From: Pseudomonadota bacterium | GTDB lineage: Bacteria; Pseudomonadota; Gammaproteobacteria; Competibacterales; Competibacteraceae | Direction: 5' to 3' | DNA length: 62,611 bases | Assembly (NCBI GenBank): GCA_030917925.1 | Contig: JAUPTV010000102.1 | Coordinates: 1-62,611, forward strand | Shown here: piece by piece, positions 7,064-47,235 of the stretch | Position numbering within the stretch: position 1 is the first letter of the stretch | Layout: each line of letters begins with the position of its first letter | Notes under the pieces: generated by a model | The model's database searches: none | The model's input: the letters and a program-made list of their open reading frames with translations, nothing else | Told to the model about the DNA's origin: nothing | Translations under genes and position numbers: made by a program

Positions 7064-8341
7064 ATGGCCAATGAGGTGTGTTACCGGACGCTGGGTCTGG
7101 ATCGGCCCTGGTCTATCGAGACCTATGCGAGCGTCGGCGGTTATGAAGCCTGGAAGCGGATTCTGGCCGGCCAGTTGACGCCTAATCAGGTGATCGACGA
7201 GGTCAAGAAATCCGGTCTGCGGGGTCGCGGCGGTGCGGGTTTCCCGACCGGTCTGAAGTGGACCTTTATGCCGCGCAATACCACTGCGCAAAAATACATG
7301 GTCTGCAATTCCGATGAATCGGAACCGGGGACCTGCAAGGATCGCGATATTCTGCGCTTCAATCCCCACGCTCTGGTGGAAGGCATGGCCATCGCCGGGT
7401 TCGCGACGGGTTCCACAGTCGGCTACAACTATATGCGTGGCGAATTCATGGATGAGCCGTATCAGCGGTTTGAAAATGCCGTCAAGGACGCCTACTCCGC
7501 CGGTTTGCTGGGTAAAAACATCCAGGGAACCGGGATCGATTTTGATCTGTATCCGAGCCTGGGCGCTGGTGCCTACATCTGCGGTGAAGAAACCGCGTTG
7601 CTGGAATCGCTGGAAGGCAAGAAGGGCCAACCGCGCTTCAAGCCGCCGTTCCCGGCCAGTTACGGTCTGTATGGCAAGCCGACTACGATCAACAATACCG
7701 AATCCTTTTCCTCAGTGCCGTCGATCATCCGCAATGGCGGTGAATGGTTCGCCAGTCTCGGTACAGCCAATGCCGGCGGTTCCAAGATTTTCTCGGTGTC
7801 CGGCCATGTCGAAAAACCTGGCAATTTTGAAGTTGCCCTGGGTCTCCCATTCGCGGAATTACTGGCGCTGGCTGGTGGGGTCTGGAAGGGACGCAAACTT
7901 AAAGCAGTCATTCCGGGCGGATCCTCAGTACCCGTAGTGCCGGGCGACATCATGCTCAAGGCCAATATGGACTACGATTCCGTGTCCAAGGTGGCCGGGT
8001 CGATGCTCGGCTCCGGGGCGGTGATCGTGATGGATGAGACCACCGATATGGTCAAGGCCCTGCAACGTATTTCCCGGTTCTACTTCTCCGAATCCTGCGG
8101 CCAATGCACGCCTTGCCGCGAAGGTACCGGCTGGCTGTATCGGTTGGTGACCCGGATCGTCGAAGGCCAGGGTCGTCCGGAAGACCTGGATCTGCTGGAC
8201 AGCGTGGCCAGCAAGATTGAAGGGCGCACTATCTGTGCGCTGGGCGACGCGGCCGCCATGCCGGTGCGCAGTTTCGTCAAGCATTATCGGCACGAATTCG
8301 CGTATTACATCGAACATAAGCGCAGCATGATTAGTGGTTAG
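7064..8341 (+). CDS. nuoF: NADH-quinone oxidoreductase subunit F (NADH/FMN site, N3 cluster)
   Basis: Binds NADH and FMN and takes the first electrons of complex I. The 425-residue protein shows the Gly-rich NADH-binding segment [13 protein letters not shown] near residue 55, the FMN-site region [21 protein letters not shown], and the N3 [4Fe-4S] ligands in [12 protein letters not shown] plus the distal Cys in [11 protein letters not shown] 69-bp gap with a perfect palindrome follows before nuoG; this is the only sizeable break between nuoA and nuoI. Confidence 0.97.
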
Positions 8342-8347
8342 CAACTC

Positions 8348-8366
8348 GCGGCTAGTCACTAGCCGC
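8348..8366. repeat. Perfect palindrome between nuoF and nuoG
   Basis: GCGGCTAGT and ACTAGCCGC pair perfectly around a single C, giving 9-bp arms. The element lies 7 bp after the nuoF stop and 45 bp before nuoG. There is no T-run after it on either strand, so it is not a simple intrinsic terminator. It could stabilise or process the nuo mRNA, act as a protein site, or be a dispersed palindromic repeat. Confidence 0.75.
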
Positions 8367-8410
8367 CAGTCGCCAACCCCTGCCCATAACCCGGTTGCAG
8401 CAGGTAAAAG

Positions 8411-10765
8411 ATGAGCGAGGAACAGGTCAACATCGAAGTCAACGGCATCCCGCTGAAGGCGCGCAAGGGCGCGATGCTCATCGAGGTCACCGATGAAGCG
8501 GGCATTCCCATCCCCCGTTTCTGTTACCACAAGAAGCTGTCCATTGCCGCCAATTGCCGGATGTGTCTGGTCGAGGTGGAAAAAGCGCCGAAGCCGCTGC
8601 CAGCCTGCGCGACGCCGGTGATGGAGGGCATGAAGGTTTATACCGAATCACCCAAGGCGCTCGCGGCGCAGAAAGGCACTATGGAGTTCCTGCTGATCAA
8701 TCATCCGCTGGACTGCCCGATTTGTGATCAGGGCGGTGAGTGTGAATTGCAGGACGTGGCGCTGGGCTATGGCGGCGATGTGTCGCTTTTCACTGAGCGC
8801 AAGCGGGTGGTGCAGGACAAGGATATTGGCCCGCTGATCGCCACTGAAATGACCCGCTGTATTCATTGCACCCGCTGTGTGCGCTTTGGCGAAGAGATCG
8901 CCGGGTTGCGTGAGTTGGGCGCTACCGGTCGCGGCGAGTTCGTGGAAATCGGCACCTATGTCTCCAAGACTGTTATTTCGGAGTTATCCGGCAACGTTAT
9001 CGACCTGTGTCCGGTCGGGGCGCTGACTGCTAAGCCGTCCCGCTACAAGGGTCGTTCCTGGGAATATGTGCAACATGCGGCCATTGCGCCGCATGATTCG
9101 GTCGGCTCCAACATTTATATTCATACCCTGCGCGGTCAGGTGATGCGGGTCGCCCCTCGGGAAAACGAGTTGGTGAATGAAACCTGGATTTCCGACCGTG
9201 ACCGCTTCAGCTACGAAGGCATTTACAGCGCTGACCGTTTGGCCAAGCCGCTGATCAAGGGCATTGAGGCAGGTTGGGAAGCGGCACTGGAAGCGGCGGC
9301 CAGTGGATTGAAAGAGGTTATCGCCCGGCATGGCGCGGACGCCGTGGGCTTCCTGATTTCGCCCACCGCTACCGTTGAGGAACTGTATCTGGCGCAGAAA
9401 CTGGCGCGAGGTCTGGGCGTCGCGAATATCGATCATCGCCTGCGGCAAGCCGATTTCAGCGATCAGGGCAGTGCGCCGGCGTTCCCCTGGTTGGGACAGA
9501 CGATTGAAGACCTGGAAAAGGTTAAAGCGGCGCTGCTGATTGGTTCGAATGTCCGCATGGAGCAACCACTAGCCGGACATCGGCTGCGCAAGGCGGCGCT
9601 GGCCGGCGGTCAGGTCATGTTTATCAATCCGCGTGATTTTGATTTTCGCTTCCCGGTCGCCGCCAAAGTGATTGCCGATCCCGTCGGTATGATCGCCGCT
9701 TTGGCGGGTGTGGCTCAGGCCGTTGCTGATGCGAAGGGTGTTGCGCTACCGGCGAATCTGGCCAGTCTGGCGACGGGCGTTCCCAGTGACGCCGAATGCG
9801 CCATGGCTGCGCATTTGACGCAAGCGCCAGCGACGGTGCTGCTGGGCAATCTGGCGATGGCTCATCCGGCCTTTGCCCAACTGCGGGCGCTGGCCGGCTT
9901 CATCGCGCAGCAGACCGGCGCACAACTGGGTTATTTGCCGGAAGCCGCTAATTCAGCGGGTGGCTGGCTGGCTGGCGCATTGCCGCATCGTGGGCCAGGC
10001 GGTCAGCGAGCGTCTACGATGGGTCTGGATGCGCGGGCCATGCTGGAGTCGCCGTGCAAAGCCTACATGCTGCTGGGCGTAGAGCCACACCTAGACTGCT
10101 GGGATGGCGCTGCGGCGCTGAAAGCCCTACAGGGCGCGGAACTGGTGATTTCGCTCAGTCCCTACTCGGGACTGGCGGGTAAGAGTCAGACACAGGTGAT
10201 TCTGCCCGTGGCGACGTTTGCCGAAACGTCAGGGACTTATGTCAACGCTGAGGGACTCTGGCAGAGCTTCAATGGCGCCAGCAAGCCGTTGGGCGAGTCC
10301 CGTCCGGCCTGGAAAGTGCTGCGCGTGCTAGGCAATTTGTGCAAGGTGGAGGGCTTCGACTACACCAGTTCCGAAGACGTGTTGGCCGAAGCGCAAAACG
10401 CCTGTGCGTCAGTGAAACCGGATAATACCGTTCATCTCGACCAGTCTTTTACACCCTTCCGGGCGGATGGGCTGTTGCGGATGGCGGAAGTGCCGATTTA
10501 CGCGACCGACCCATTGGTGCGGCGTGCGCCTTCGCTGCAAGCGAGTGCGCTAACGCGGCCTGCTGAAGTACGGCTGCATCCCGAGGTTGCCCAGGCGCTG
10601 GGCGTGGCTGGACGCGAGCAGGTGCAGGTGCGGCAGAACGGCATCGCGGTCGATTTGCCGCTGGTGCTGGATGAGACCGTTCCCCAGGGCTGCGCCTGGA
10701 TTCCGGCAGGATTGAACGGCAGCGTGGCGCTTGGCCCCGCCGTCGGCCCCGTGGCGATTCAATAA
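8411..10765 (+). CDS. nuoG: NADH-quinone oxidoreductase subunit G
   Basis: The large Fe-S subunit (784 residues) of the NADH module, related to molybdopterin oxidoreductases. The N-terminal 2Fe-2S domain has [18 protein letters not shown] (N1b). It is followed by [14 protein letters not shown] (His/Cys ligands of N5) and the 4Fe-4S domain [10 protein letters not shown] with LCPVGALT (N4). The rest is the molybdopterin-oxidoreductase-like region, which in complex I no longer binds the cofactor. The length is at the shorter end for bacterial NuoG and resembles betaproteobacterial forms. nuoH begins 16 bp later. Confidence 0.96.
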
Positions 10766-18291: not shown

Positions 18292-18624
18292 ATGTCTCAA
18301 GGTCTGGTCATCGGCCTGTGGCTGGGGTTGGCGGTGCTGGCCGCCAACCTGCCTTGGCTGAGTGAGCGTTGGTTGTTGGTGATCGCCCGCCCTGATCGGC
18401 GGGCGAAGCCGTTTTGGTTTCGGCTGGTGGAGTGGAGCTTACTGTATGGCCTGATGGCCGGTATCGGCTTCGGGTTTGAGTACAAGGCCACCGGTGCGGT
18501 CCACACCCAGGATTGGGAGTTTTATACCGTGACGCTGTGCCTGTTTGCGGTTAGCGCCCTGCCGGGGTTTATCTACTGCTATCAGTTGCGGCGGTTATTG
18601 GAACAGGCAGGTCGGGCGGGGTAA
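18292..18624 (+). CDS. DUF2818 family membrane protein
   Basis: A 110-residue protein with three predicted transmembrane segments (about residues 6-24, 45-66 and 76-97). It matches the DUF2818 family, which commonly follows nuoN in Beta- and some Gammaproteobacteria and has no established function. The 16-bp spacing from nuoN places it in the nuo operon, so a role in assembly or stability of complex I is a reasonable but untested inference. The pattern LAANLPWLSERWLLV at the N-terminus is typical of the family. Confidence 0.85.
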   Translation: MSQGLVIGLWLGLAVLAANLPWLSERWLLVIARPDRRAKPFWFRLVEWSLLYGLMAGIGFGFEYKATGAVHTQDWEFYTVTLCLFAVSALPGFIYCYQLRRLLEQAGRAG

Positions 18625-18720
18625 GGGGATAACCTGGGGTTGCTTGGCCAGGCTTTTGCTGCACTGCAATATAAAACCGTGTATAGTCAGACCGCTTGTA
18701 GCCAGTGTTGTGGAGCGGTC

Positions 18721-19590
18721 ATGTCGAAACAGTACCCTATCATTGCCATTACGGGTTCCTCCGGGGCCGGCACCTCGACGGTGCGCGTGGCGATGGAACA
18801 CATTTTTCGGCGAGACGGGATTAATGCGGTCACCGTGGAAGGCGACAGCTTTCATCGCTATGACCGTTTCGAGATGCAGCAACAAGTGGAACAGGCGTTG
18901 CGGGATGGTCGCCATCTCAGCCATTTCGGACCCGAAGGCAACCTGTTTGACCGACTGGAGGCGCTGTTCATGGAGTACAGCGAGCACGGAACAGGATTAA
19001 GGCGCTACTATCTGCATGACCCGGAAGAAGCCCGATCCCGTGGCCGGGAACCGGGGATGTTCACACCCTGGACGCAACTTCCTTCAGGCACCGATCTGCT
19101 GTTTTACGAGGGTCTGCATGGCGGAATAGTCACTGATAAAGTGAATGTCGCCCGCTATGTGGATTTGCTGATTGGGGTCGTGCCGATTGTGAACTTGGAA
19201 TGGATTCAGAAAATTCATCGCGACACCGCCGAACGCGGCTACAGTCCGGAAGCCGTGACGGATAATATCCTGCGGCGGATGCACGATTACACGCATCACA
19301 TCGTGCCGCAATTCTCCCGCACGGACATCAACTTCCAGCGGGTGCCGACGGTTGATACTTCGGATCCCTTCGCTGCCCGCGACATTCCAACGCTGGATGA
19401 GAGTTTCGTGGTCATCCGCTTTCGGGAGCCGCGCAAGACTCAGCCGGATTTTACCTACCTCTTGCACATGATCCATGATTCCTTTATGTCGCGCCGCAAC
19501 ACGATTGTGGTGCCGGGCGGCAAGATGGGATTCGCCATGGAACTCATTTTGCAGCCACTGATCGAGCAACTCATTCGCCGGGAATATTAG
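18721..19590 (+). CDS. prkB: Phosphoribulokinase (PrkB/CbbP family)
   Basis: ATP-dependent kinase that converts ribulose 5-phosphate to ribulose 1,5-bisphosphate, a Calvin-cycle step. The 289-residue protein has the variant P-loop ITGSSGAGTST near residue 10, as in the proteobacterial class I enzymes. It also has VEGDSFHRYDRFE with the catalytic acidic residues, LFYEGLHGG and QFSRTDINFQRVPTVDTSDPF. The ATG at 18721 follows GGAGCGG; an in-frame opening at 18640 covers a promoter-like region (TATAAA at 18670). No RubisCO or other cbb gene is in the window, so whether it serves autotrophy or is an orphan PrkB as in E. coli cannot be decided here. Confidence 0.92.
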   Translation: MSKQYPIIAITGSSGAGTSTVRVAMEHIFRRDGINAVTVEGDSFHRYDRFEMQQQVEQALRDGRHLSHFGPEGNLFDRLEALFMEYSEHGTGLRRYYLHDPEEARSRGREPGMFTPWTQLPSGTDLLFYEGLHGGIVTDKVNVARYVDLLIGVVPIVNLEWIQKIHRDTAERGYSPEAVTDNILRRMHDYTHHIVPQFSRTDINFQRVPTVDTSDPFAARDIPTLDESFVVIRFREPRKTQPDFTYLLHMIHDSFMSRRNTIVVPGGKMGFAMELILQPLIEQLIRREY

Positions 19591-19592
19591 AA

Positions 19593-19671
19593 CGGTTCTC
19601 AGGCGTCCATGCGCTCGGTCAATTACCGGTACAATGCGCAGCACCGGACGCCTGTAGAGAAACGAGAACCG
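19593..19671 (+). promoter_or_regulatory. Four-tier nested inverted repeat in the leader of the WD40 pseudokinase gene
   Basis: Four nested arm pairs are visible: CGGTTCTC/GAGAACCG (19593-19600, 19664-19671), AGGCGTCC/GGACGCCT (19601-19608, 19646-19653), TGCGC/GCGCA (19610-19614, 19636-19640) and CGGT/ACCG (19616-19619, 19625-19628), 25 bp in total. The outer 3' arm ends 4 nt before the ATG at 19676 and contains the only purine-rich candidate ribosome site (GAGAA). A folded RNA would therefore hide the start region. A -10-like TACAAT at 19630-19635 lies in the interior, so the element could instead be DNA-level. Confidence 0.7.
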
Positions 19672-19675
19672 CTTC

Positions 19676-22639
19676 ATGCTTCAACCGCCTGCCCTCCAGT
19701 CGCTTTCCACTGCACTGATCCCGCCCGTGCGCCCACGGGTCCTGCCCTCTGCGCTGGCCGACCATTATCGGGTGCTGCGGGATTTGCGCGTTCAGAGTGC
19801 AGAAACAGATGTGCTGCTGGTGGAATCGCTGACCACACCAGGACAACGGGCGGTCGTCCGGCTTTATCATCCCGGCATTCAGCCCAAAAGCGAGATTTTT
19901 CGCTGGATCGGAACCGAGGTGCCGCATTACGTCGCACAATTGCTGGAATACGGTAGTTCGGATGGCGTTGGTTATGAGTTGCTGGAATATGCTGAGCACG
20001 GTTCATTGCGTGGGTGGATGGCGGCGGGAGCCTTGGCGGAGGTGGATGCCTGGGAATTGTTGACGGAACTCGGTGGAGCGCTGGCAGAATTACATGGACG
20101 CCATATTTTGCATGGCAATCTGAAACCGGAAAATATCCTGATCCGGCGTCGGCAACCGTTGCAACTGGCGCTCACCGATTTCAGCATCGCTTCCCTGGCG
20201 GAGACAATCCACGGTTTTACGGCAGGTCGCGCCGTGCCCTATATCGCTCCGGAAATGGCCACTGGTGTGGCAGGTATGGCAGCGGACTATTGGTCACTGG
20301 GTATGATCCTGCTCGAAGCTTTGACTGGTCAACGTCCCTTCGCCGGGTTATCGGGGATTGTGATTCGCTATCAATTGCGAGTGCGGCCAGTTCCAGTGGA
20401 TGAGGTGATGGAGCCGTGGCGAATGCTGTGTCGCGGCTTGTTGCTGCGCGATCCACCGCAGCGTTGGGGGGCTGCCGAGATTCGTCGCTGGCTGGCTGGC
20501 GAGCGCGAAGTGTGTTTGCCGGTGGATGCGCCACAGCCTGAAGCGGTCACCTTTCGCCCCGGACGCTTTTATCGCCTGGCCGGGGTCGAGTGTCGGTCGC
20601 CTCGCGAGTTGGCGACGCAAATGGCCAGTCATTGGGAGGAAGCCCGTGATGCGTTGACAAGGGGGACTCTCGGCGACTGGTTGCATGGTTTAGGGGAGCA
20701 AGCGGTGGGGCGAGCGGCGTTGGAAGTCCTGGACGCTGACGGTATGCCACTCGACGAGCGCCTAGTGCGGTTGCTGGCCCATCTGGCCCCGGATTTGCCA
20801 CCGAGGTGGAAGCAGTGGAGTTTAGCAGCTAATGATCTGGCGGCGGCAGCGCAAGCCGCCCGGGATGACGATGCCGCCAGCCGTGCGTTATTGCTGGAAC
20901 TGTATCAGGGGCAACCGGATGTGCTGGGCGTTTATGCCGCTGCCGGTAATGCCGAATGTCAGTGGTTGCAAGCGGCCTGGCGGTCGGCGGCGGCGGATTA
21001 CGAGCGCGTCTGGCAAACGGCGCGGGCCTACGGTCTGTCATTGGCGAAAGCGCCTCCCGACTGGGTGGCAATGCTGCCCGATCTGTTGCTGACGGTGACG
21101 TCACCGGTGTTTCAGAACCGGATTGAGATTGAAGTGCAAAGCCTGGCGCGGGAGGTGCATCCCCATCCCGCCTGGCTGGACAGCCTGCTGAATGCGGCTA
21201 GGCAGGGTGGCGGCGCACTGGCGTTGCGGACGATATTGCGCTGGTTGCCGACGGTTATCGAAATCCAGCAATACACGGCTCCCCGTCTGGAAGCGCTCTT
21301 GCAGGAGTTTGCCATTCTGCACCGCAGCCCGGATTTTATGGAGGCTCTGAACCGCTTCGATGAAAACCTGTGCGATGGGGTCTATGACAGTCCGCAAGCC
21401 GTGGCGCGGGCTATCGAGGGTTTACGGCGCGACGCCCAGGCGCTGGCGGAGGTCTTGCGGCAATACTATGCGCTGTCGGAACGGACCGCCGTCAATAGCG
21501 CCGCCAGCCTGGTCTTACAGCGCTGGCAACCGCGTCTGGCCGCCCCACGCTATGCGGATACGGATCGCTTGCGCCAGGAACTGGCGCAGCCACTGCGTTG
21601 GCGAATCAGCGTTGACGGCTGGGAACGACCTGCAGCTTCGGCATGGCGCTGGGAACACGAGAGTCTCTGCTTACCCGGCAAGTCCTCGGGTAAAGTGGTC
21701 GTGGCGTTCAGTCCGGATGGGCGGTGGCTGGTCAGTGGTGGCGGCGATCGGACGGTGCGACTATGGCGGATCGAGACGCAGCAGTGCATATCTACTCTGC
21801 AAGGACATAGCGGGAGTATCAGCGCGGTCGCGTTCAGTGCGGATGGGCGGTGGCTGGCCAGTAGCGGCGATCGCACGGTGCGACTGTGGCAGGTCAACAG
21901 CGGGCAGTGCAAGGCGACGTTACGAGGACATACCGGTATGGTGAGCGCGGTCGCGTTCAGTCCGGACGGGCGCTGGCTGGTCAGTAGCAGTGCGGATCGC
22001 ACATTACGGTTGTGGCGGGTCGATGGTGGGTTGTGCATGGCGACCTTGCAGGGACACACCGGTATTGTCAACGCGGTGGCGTTCAGTCCGGATGGGCAAT
22101 CATTGGCCAGCGGCAGCGCTGATCGCACCGTGCGATTGTGGCGAATTGAGGGTGGACAATGTGTCGCGGTGTTGCCGGGACGCACGGGACGAGTGACGTC
22201 CGTCGCCTTCAGTCCGGATGGGCGGTGGCTGGCCAGTGGCAGCGGGAGCTTTTCCGAGCGGCGATGCGATGATGACGCCGTGCGATTATGGCGAGTGGAG
22301 AACCGGCAATGTGTGGTGGCTTTTCCCGGCCATACCGGAAGTGTGAACGCGGTGACATTCAGCCCGGATGGACGATTGATAGCCAGTGGCAGCAGTGATC
22401 ATACGATTCGATTATGGCGGGTGGAGAACCGGCAGTGTGCGGCCACTTTGCCCGATCGGGGTGGGGAGGTGACTGGAGTGGCCTTCAGTCCCGATGGGCG
22501 GCGACTGGCCAGTGGTTGCGAAGACGGGTTGGTACTGTGGAATTGTCGTCAGATGACCACGGTTGAGATGACGCTCGACGAACTGATTGCCTGGGAGAAG
22601 GCGCGAGTCGGGCAATATAGCGCTATCCAGCAGGTTTAG
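19676..22639 (+). CDS. WD40 beta-propeller protein with degenerate serine/threonine kinase domain (predicted pseudokinase)
   Basis: A 987-residue protein with three parts. Residues 31-275 have a bacterial Ser/Thr kinase fold: HGNLKPENIL at 146-155, TDFSIAS at 167-173, APE at 191-193 and ADYWSLG at 203-209. All three catalytic hallmarks are changed: the beta-3 Lys is Arg62, the HRD Asp is Asn148, and DFG is DFS (168-170). No Gly-rich ATP loop is visible. Residues about 275-670 are an Ala/Leu-rich helical linker. Residues about 673-960 hold seven WD repeats with the pattern AFSPDGRWLASG-DRTVRLWR, enough for one seven-bladed propeller. There is no signal peptide or membrane helix, so the protein is probably cytoplasmic. 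A scaffold role is inferred; the partner is unknown. Confidence 0.85.
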   Translation: MLQPPALQSLSTALIPPVRPRVLPSALADHYRVLRDLRVQSAETDVLLVESLTTPGQRAVVRLYHPGIQPKSEIFRWIGTEVPHYVAQLLEYGSSDGVGYELLEYAEHGSLRGWMAAGALAEVDAWELLTELGGALAELHGRHILHGNLKPENILIRRRQPLQLALTDFSIASLAETIHGFTAGRAVPYIAPEMATGVAGMAADYWSLGMILLEALTGQRPFAGLSGIVIRYQLRVRPVPVDEVMEPWRMLCRGLLLRDPPQRWGAAEIRRWLAGEREVCLPVDAPQPEAVTFRPGRFYRLAGVECRSPRELATQMASHWEEARDALTRGTLGDWLHGLGEQAVGRAALEVLDADGMPLDERLVRLLAHLAPDLPPRWKQWSLAANDLAAAAQAARDDDAASRALLLELYQGQPDVLGVYAAAGNAECQWLQAAWRSAAADYERVWQTARAYGLSLAKAPPDWVAMLPDLLLTVTSPVFQNRIEIEVQSLAREVHPHPAWLDSLLNAARQGGGALALRTILRWLPTVIEIQQYTAPRLEALLQEFAILHRSPDFMEALNRFDENLCDGVYDSPQAVARAIEGLRRDAQALAEVLRQYYALSERTAVNSAASLVLQRWQPRLAAPRYADTDRLRQELAQPLRWRISVDGWERPAASAWRWEHESLCLPGKSSGKVVVAFSPDGRWLVSGGGDRTVRLWRIETQQCISTLQGHSGSISAVAFSADGRWLASSGDRTVRLWQVNSGQCKATLRGHTGMVSAVAFSPDGRWLVSSSADRTLRLWRVDGGLCMATLQGHTGIVNAVAFSPDGQSLASGSADRTVRLWRIEGGQCVAVLPGRTGRVTSVAFSPDGRWLASGSGSFSERRCDDDAVRLWRVENRQCVVAFPGHTGSVNAVTFSPDGRLIASGSSDHTIRLWRVENRQCAATLPDRGGEVTGVAFSPDGRRLASGCEDGLVLWNCRQMTTVEMTLDELIAWEKARVGQYSAIQQV

Positions 22640-31128: not shown

Positions 31129-31169
31129 GGCGGCAATGCCGTCAATTTAGGCGTGGAAGCGTGGACAAT

Positions 31170-31200
31170 AAAAAAGGGGATTGCGTTCCTCGCAATCCCC
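31170..31200 (-). terminator. Intrinsic terminator of the DHODH-like gene
   Basis: GGGGATTGCG (31176-31185) and CGCAATCCCC (31191-31200) form a perfect 10-bp stem with a 5-nt loop. On the minus strand the stem is followed by a run of six T, which places it 63 bp after the stop codon at 31263. On the plus strand there is no T-run, but the stem also lies 47 bp after msrB and could act on both. Confidence 0.9.
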
Positions 31201-31262
31201 TCAAGACCTCCAAGCGCCGCTGAGGTCAATCAAGCTGAACAACAGCCTGAGAAAAATGAATA

Positions 31263-39004: not shown

Positions 39005-39010
39005 GCGCTG

Positions 39011-39091
39011 CAACATTCCTTCGGAATGTTTGTTCTCGAATCCTTCTTTGGTGGTTCTTGGCCGGGGTTAGCAATAGCCCCGGCATTTTTT
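39011..39091 (+). ncRNA. Small RNA candidate 1 (tandem pair, upstream copy)
   Basis: About 81 nt. It starts with a perfect 8-bp hairpin (AACATTCC at 39012-39019, GGAATGTT at 39023-39030). A single-stranded stretch TGTTCTCGAA leads into the core CCTTCTTTGGTGGTTCTT (39042-39059). It ends with a 7-bp GC stem (39061-39067, 39078-39084) and T-run 39086-39091, an intrinsic terminator. It has its own promoter and no open reading frame. The second copy 150 bp downstream has the same order of parts. The pyrimidine-rich core could pair with purine-rich ribosome sites; that role is inferred. Confidence 0.7.
39061..39091 (+). terminator. Intrinsic terminator of small RNA candidate 1
   Basis: GCCGGGG (39061-39067) pairs with CCCCGGC (39078-39084) around a 10-nt loop, followed by A and six T. 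It could also terminate read-through from the upstream reductase gene. Confidence 0.88.
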
Positions 39092-39117
39092 ATGACGGTA
39101 AAAGCGAGGTTGGTTCC

Positions 39118-46391: not shown

Positions 46392-46440
46392 AGCGGCTCG
46401 GTGAGAAGGCAGAGAGTGAGGGAAAAAATCGGGAGTGAGG

Positions 46441-46486
46441 GATCAGGGAGATAGCAAGGTCACGAACAGCTTGCTAATCCCTGATC
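46441..46486. repeat. Large two-tier inverted repeat between petC and sspB
   Basis: GATCAGGGA (46441-46449) pairs with TCCCTGATC (46478-46486), and TAGCAAG (46452-46458) pairs with CTTGCTA (46470-46476), around an 11-nt loop. This 16-bp interrupted stem fills the gap left where sspA is expected. No T-run follows on either strand. It may be a REP-like palindrome or an mRNA 3' stabiliser for petABC. Confidence 0.8.
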
Positions 46487-46494
46487 GCCTCGGG

Positions 46495-47235
46495 TTAATG
46501 CACGTCCTTCCAGTACTCTTTCTTGAGCAGGTAGAACACGACCGTGGCCAGAGCCAGGAACAGCAATACCCAGAGGCCCAGGCGCTGGCGCTCTAGTTTA
46601 ATGGGTTCCCCAACATAGGACAGGAAGTTGGTCAGATCGCCCATAGCTTCCTTGAACTCCGGCGGACTCATGCTGCCCGGTTGGGTCAGCTTGAAGCCTG
46701 ACAGGGTTTTGACCGAATTGCCGGCAGTGTCCTTGTGCGTGGTGTAGACCGCTTCCTGCATCCCCTGCAATTCCCACAGAACATGCGGCATACCGGCGTT
46801 CGGGAACACCGCATTGTTGACGCCGAAAGGCCGGGTGGGGTCTTTATAGAAGGTTTGCAGGTAGGTGTAGAGGTAATCCACTCCGCGCGAACGGGCGATC
46901 ACGGTCAGATCCGGCGGGGCGACGCCAAACCATTGCTTGGCGTCGGCCTTGGGCATGGCGTTTTTCATAGTGTCGCCAACCTTGGCCCCGGTGAAGATCA
47001 AATTTTCTTTCACCTGTTCATCGGTCAGGCCGATGTCGCGGGCCATGCGGTTATAGCGCTGATAATCCAGCGAATGGCAACCCATGCAGTAGTTGACAAA
47101 CAGCTTGGCACCATTTTGCAGGGAGCCGTGGTTGGTCAGGTCAATCGGTGCGGTCTGTAGTGGAAAGCCGCCGGCAGCGGCAAACGTCAGTCCCGGCAAG
47201 GTCAGGAATGCGAGTGCGATGATGATTTTTTTCAT
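46495..47235 (-). CDS. petC: Ubiquinol-cytochrome c reductase, cytochrome c1
   Basis: Heme-c subunit of the bc1 complex (246 residues). A signal peptide (MKKIIIALAFLTLPGLTFA) is followed by the heme-binding CMGCHSLDY near residue 53. The distal Met ligand is probably in NAGMPHVLWELQG. A C-terminal transmembrane anchor (LGLWVLLFLALATVVFYLLKK) holds the protein on the periplasmic side of the inner membrane. The start overlaps the petB stop by 4 bp. Confidence 0.96.
   Translation of the reverse strand: MKKIIIALAFLTLPGLTFAAAGGFPLQTAPIDLTNHGSLQNGAKLFVNYCMGCHSLDYQRYNRMARDIGLTDEQVKENLIFTGAKVGDTMKNAMPKADAKQWFGVAPPDLTVIARSRGVDYLYTYLQTFYKDPTRPFGVNNAVFPNAGMPHVLWELQGMQEAVYTTHKDTAGNSVKTLSGFKLTQPGSMSPPEFKEAMGDLTNFLSYVGEPIKLERQRLGLWVLLFLALATVVFYLLKKEYWKDVH

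Follow-up and report, generated by a model that had tools for sequence, protein, structure and literature searches.

Intercistronic stems that lie over the ribosome site of a downstream gene and are opened by translation of the upstream gene are represented by the VII-IX pair of phage f1, the coat-lysis pair of phage MS2 and the rpmI-rplT pair of E. coli (at +52 nt), according to PMC12548453. Hairpins that mask a ribosome site are well known and common, and coupling by unfolding is likewise a known mechanism. The hairpin considered here occupies positions 19593-19671 of the DNA analysed (hereafter the window, i.e., the whole stretch of 62,611 nt), between a phosphoribulokinase gene and a pseudokinase-like gene which lie on the same strand with an 85-nt gap. 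The hairpin is like the above RNA-unfolding systems in that a stem covers or adjoins a downstream ribosome site and upstream translation would open it, and the gap, as in rpmI-rplT, is one of tens of nucleotides. It differs from the known coupled pairs in the length of that gap, in the location of the whole stem 3' of the upstream stop, in the lack of conservation of the gene pair and in that coupling is here a matter of prediction. The accessible portions of the literature on translational coupling and on Competibacter phosphoribulokinase contain no mention of the hairpin.

The gene pair and the anatomy of the hairpin

The features of the locus are as follows:

18721-19590, + strand: phosphoribulokinase gene, 289 aa, stop codon TAG at 19588-19590 (Pfam PF00485, E 7.4e-66)
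19593-19600, + strand: 5' arm of the outer helix, CGGTTCTC, beginning 2 nt past the phosphoribulokinase stop codon (fold and arm match)
19601-19608, + strand: 5' arm of the second helix, AGGCGTCC (fold and arm match)
19610-19639, + strand: apical part, with 5 bp TGCGC/GCGCA, 4 bp CGGT/ACCG (+1 G-U) and the loop CAATT (fold)
19630-19635, + strand: TACAAT, inside the apical part (sequence)
19646-19653, + strand: 3' arm of the second helix, GGACGCCT (fold and arm match)
19654-19663, + strand: 3' bulge, unpaired, leaving the purine-rich AGAGAAA at 19656-19662 exposed (fold)
19664-19671, + strand: 3' arm of the outer helix, GAGAACCG, containing the better-placed Shine-Dalgarno candidate GAG/GAGAA (fold and arm match)
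19676-22639, + strand: pseudokinase-like gene, kinase domain plus WD40 propeller, 987 aa (domain matches; catalytic loop HGN, not HRD)

The phosphoribulokinase protein scores 488.5 bits against NCBIfam NF011997 (cut-off 362), and its gene is preceded by a DUF2818 gene and a NuoN-type gene. The start codon of the pseudokinase gene is set by homology, as its N-terminus aligns with those of its orthologs. The catalytic-loop aspartate is replaced by asparagine in all four aligned orthologs, as HGN in this genome and as HRN in the other three. The beta-3 lysine is arginine in the protein of this genome, and these alignment-based changes support the label pseudokinase. Among named records, the closest relatives are two MAGs of Candidatus Competibacteraceae and a third labelled Proteobacteria, so that the window probably belongs to this family. 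Against the NCBIfam defence kinase MAD6 the kinase domain attains 70 bits, far under the cut-off of 460, and hence no defence role can be claimed for the gene. Several pseudokinase-WD40 paralogs are clustered in one genome of the same genus (G038, contig C13, 28000-47000, locus L171), a pattern suggestive of a gene family that is mobile or expanding.

An earlier note, made from the sequence alone, had described four nested arm pairs of 8, 8, 5 and 4 bp in 79 nt, ending 4 nt before the start codon; both the sequence and the fold bear this out, with the last arm base at 19671 and the ATG at 19676. The outer helix pairs 19593-19600 with 19664-19671 and the second helix 19601-19608 with 19646-19653, each over 8 bp that are 100% Watson-Crick. 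The second helix becomes 9 bp if G19654 takes C19600 instead, and in context three further pairs (19590-19592 with 19673-19675) can be added to the outer one beyond a bulged C. Folding of 19593-19671 against shuffled sequences, the check which that note had proposed, gives -34.4 kcal/mol and a z of -4.27, with none of 200 shuffles equally stable. This z depends on the stretch folded, being -2.85 for 19591-19690 (3/300 shuffles equally stable) and -1.27 for 19560-19700 (36/300).

How unusual is the dyad?

The argument that so many ordered arms are unlikely by chance holds against shuffled sequence, but weakens in that z falls when a longer stretch is folded and real DNA is much richer in dyads than its shuffles. 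Nested perfect arms of 8+8 bp occur once in the window, while 4 of 60 whole-window shuffles contain such a case. The 65 loci from the family, some of which overlap, hold eight in 283,250 bases as against 0.33 when shuffled, i.e., one per about 35 kb of related DNA; 64 loci from other organisms hold 21 in 553,460 bases as against 2.33. Within the window, a z of -4 or lower is found in six of the 24 intergenic gaps of at least 40 nt, with the hairpin gap ranking sixth, on gene starts from a greedy longest-frame rule that are probably wrong in part. The same z is reached by 4 of 1563 sampled 79-nt windows (30 shuffles each), and in raw energy the hairpin ranks 321 of 12,509 windows of that size. 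Since real DNA is dyad-rich, strong gap folds are frequent and the raw energy is unremarkable, the hairpin, though real, is an ordinarily strong dyad and not an exceptional one.

Several established classes were also considered. The hairpin is like an intrinsic (Rho-independent) terminator in having a GC-rich stem directly 3' of a stop codon, and differs in lacking a U-run and in its large internal interruptions. No U-run follows the arms on either strand, the terminator scan lists none in the element on either strand and the sequence scan found neither a terminator nor a promoter match anywhere in the gap, so that the proposed transcription barrier after the phosphoribulokinase gene is not supported in the form of a terminator. 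A repeated palindromic element of the REP or MITE kind is likewise rejected, with one full copy in the genome; nine other partial matches of 14-19 nt exist, and the seven viewed in context agree with the hairpin over that length only, each inside an open frame of at least 137 codons. Searches of the hairpin against phage and plasmid collections returned no match. Rfam covariance models gave no relevant match to it, the only hit being a chance match outside the element (E 2.1).

Other stems are seen elsewhere in the window. A very stable stem in a convergent gap at 31155-31255 (GGGGATTGCG.../CGCAATCCCC) has a U-run next to it on the - strand and an A-run at its opposite side, and is apparently a terminator for the converging genes. 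Of two stems at 39005-39100, the second has 10 bp (GCCGGGGTTA) with ATTTTTT after it and is likely an intrinsic terminator. The 69-nt gap ahead of a NuoG-like gene has a long stem at 8332-8425 (GCGGCTAG/CTAGCCGC) without a U-run, with a z of -5.2 in a 79-nt scan (40 shuffles) and -2.6 over 94 nt. On the - strand, a long interrupted stem at 46410-46505 separates two - strand genes, and TTTTTT occurs a few nucleotides later.

Relatives and the origin of the gene order

A search of 39 further genomes from the order found no counterpart of the hairpin. A 351-base query spanning the gap matches 29 of 39 family genomes, its own included, via the phosphoribulokinase end. The 5'-arm pieces GGTTCTC and CAGGCGT are absent within 100 nt of the phosphoribulokinase stop in all 28 non-own loci. 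None of the 3' flanks folds as well as the hairpin, the best z being -2.39 among the 27 folded (L030 was dropped on account of N bases). The frame rule misplaced the stop codon of L036, which leaves 26 properly placed loci in the folding, and the arm search used the same placements. In most relatives the phosphoribulokinase gene is followed by a convergent gene, which is EamA-like in the one tested; a crude motif of this neighbour is present at 22 of 29 phosphoribulokinase loci.

Relatives of the pseudokinase, 66-69% identical, occur in four genomes of the same genus at other genomic places. In G035 the ortholog lies behind a tetrapyrrole (uroporphyrinogen) methyltransferase-like gene, whose presence there was confirmed, and the upstream sequences in G034 and G037 look like that of G035, with a methyltransferase-like frame; G038, G029 and other genomes have yet other sequences upstream of their kinase orthologs. 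The methylase gene of the present genome is on another contig, where it is followed by a GGDEF gene. Given the methylase setting of the G034, G035 and G037 orthologs and the separate location of this genome's methylase gene ahead of a GGDEF gene, the order phosphoribulokinase-pseudokinase is probably a local rearrangement.

The leaders of the orthologs in G034, G035 and G037, three of the 12 non-own kinase loci listed, show no unusual fold (z 0.21, -0.82 and -0.41) and no hairpin. Both the phosphoribulokinase flanks of relatives and these orthologous leaders lack the element, which suggests that it arose where the pseudokinase gene came behind phosphoribulokinase. The octamer AACGAGAA, which ends at 19668, stands just 5' of the ATG in this genome and in G035 and G037 (two of three same-genus orthologs), and occurs three times in the 125,222 positions of both window strands. 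When the entire gap is aligned locally with the upstream stretches of five orthologs, no match is significant (261 to 887 of 1000 shuffles score as well), and the agreement is confined to this pre-ATG octamer in G035 and G037. The shared octamer implies that the outer 3' arm contains an inherited candidate ribosome site; arms pairing with that site were not seen to be inherited along with the gene. As no relative has the arms, covariation lends the hairpin no support. The earlier note had held that homologous leaders devoid of complementary arms would speak against its reading, and such leaders are what was found; this counts against a conserved function, and not against a function in this species.

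Predicted masking of the ribosome site and the alternatives

In the free mRNA the stretch GAGAA (19664-19668) has a predicted unpaired probability of 0.071, which rises to 0.604 when 19541 up to 19600 is blocked in place of a ribosome at the phosphoribulokinase stop (with an assumed footprint length), while the inner helix is still paired. Hence the idea that the fold masks the translation start is retained as a prediction for the better-placed site. However, such masking is ordinary in the window: among starts called by the above greedy rule, and so probably wrong in part, the pseudokinase start ranks 7 of 37 by Shine-Dalgarno core and 21 of 53 by best hexamer. Further, the outer 3' arm is not, as had been claimed, the only purine-rich candidate, for the unpaired AGAGAAA at 19656-19662 binds the anti-Shine-Dalgarno equally (-2.9 kcal/mol versus -3.0 for the masked site), although the ATG lies 16 nt after its GAG as against 9 nt after the masked GAG.

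Our leading reading, held tentatively, is that the hairpin is an intercistronic stem which masks the Shine-Dalgarno sequence until ribosomes completing phosphoribulokinase open it, i.e., translational coupling by RNA unfolding. In the free mRNA, the outer helix would pair GAGAACCG with CGGUUCUC and hide the Shine-Dalgarno of the pseudokinase gene. A ribosome terminating on phosphoribulokinase, with a footprint of the presumed extent, would cover the CGGUUCUC arm and free the Shine-Dalgarno, while the inner helix would stay folded and shorten the effective 85-nt gap. On this model, which we infer along with co-transcription of the two genes and the regulation itself, the hairpin would be a local trait of this species and would postdate the arrival of the pseudokinase gene behind phosphoribulokinase. 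The fold and its arms, the common strand, the 85-nt gap devoid of a terminator, the predicted change in accessibility, the start codon set by aligned N-termini and by the shared octamer, and the f1, MS2 and E. coli precedents argue for it. Against it stand the lack of conservation of the arms, the commonness of similar masking and of strong gap folds in the window, and the exposed AGAGAAA. Two observations reported in PMC12548453 also count against it: in one screen, predicted structure just 3' of the upstream stop correlates negatively with coupling, and f1 VII-IX is no longer coupled at +89 nt, with the stop well upstream of the hairpin.

Nearly as likely as this coupling stem is a neutral dyad at a gene-relocation junction. 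On this view the pseudokinase gene arrived behind phosphoribulokinase together with a short leader of its own (AACGAGAA...ATG), and the inverted repeat spanning the junction is one of many in the genome, due to chance or to template switching in the course of the rearrangement, with no selected role. Such an origin agrees with a gene order that none of the relatives seen shares, with the methyltransferase-like frame ahead of the G034, G035 and G037 orthologs while the own methylase counterpart precedes another gene, with the 22 of 29 phosphoribulokinase loci bearing the convergent-neighbour motif (EamA in one), with the commonness of nested dyads in real DNA and with the non-conservation of the hairpin; it accounts less readily for arms placed exactly between stop and start codons and covering the Shine-Dalgarno, and for the only two nested perfect 8-bp arms in the window. 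The strong stem without a U-run directly 3' of the stop codon could instead protect the 3' end of the phosphoribulokinase mRNA from exonucleases or mark a site of processing, yielding unequal amounts of the two gene parts of a single transcript; the absence of such a stem from the corresponding flanks of the relatives (see above) makes this unlikely. A DNA-level feature is more doubtful still, whether as an operator dyad or as a TACAAT promoter that would leave the 5' arms outside the pseudokinase mRNA. TACAAT matches the -10 hexamer at 5/6 positions and the dyad also exists as DNA, but no -35 match accompanies it, a scan of 18400-19900 yields no promoter-like sites, and GGTACAATGCGC, with up to one mismatch, is counted 15 times in the genome as is its reversed control. 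Least probable is the thermosensor or ligand- or protein-responsive leader that the earlier note had offered, for which the masking geometry is the one point in favour; this proposal finds no relevant Rfam match and no relative with the element, and the 16-bp GC-rich stem is unlike that of RNA thermometers, which is usually weak.

Beyond the coupling stem itself, the locus might represent a newly formed coupling device, in which relocation of the pseudokinase-WD40 gene was followed by emergence of a two-helix stem, possibly through template switching that copied an arm, tying pseudokinase synthesis to phosphoribulokinase in this species alone; we regard this extended scenario as improbable. 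The hairpin opens no long-standing question, and similar stems are frequent in bacterial DNA. If true, the coupling would furnish a small example of a relocated gene wired into its new neighbourhood by an intercistronic stem.
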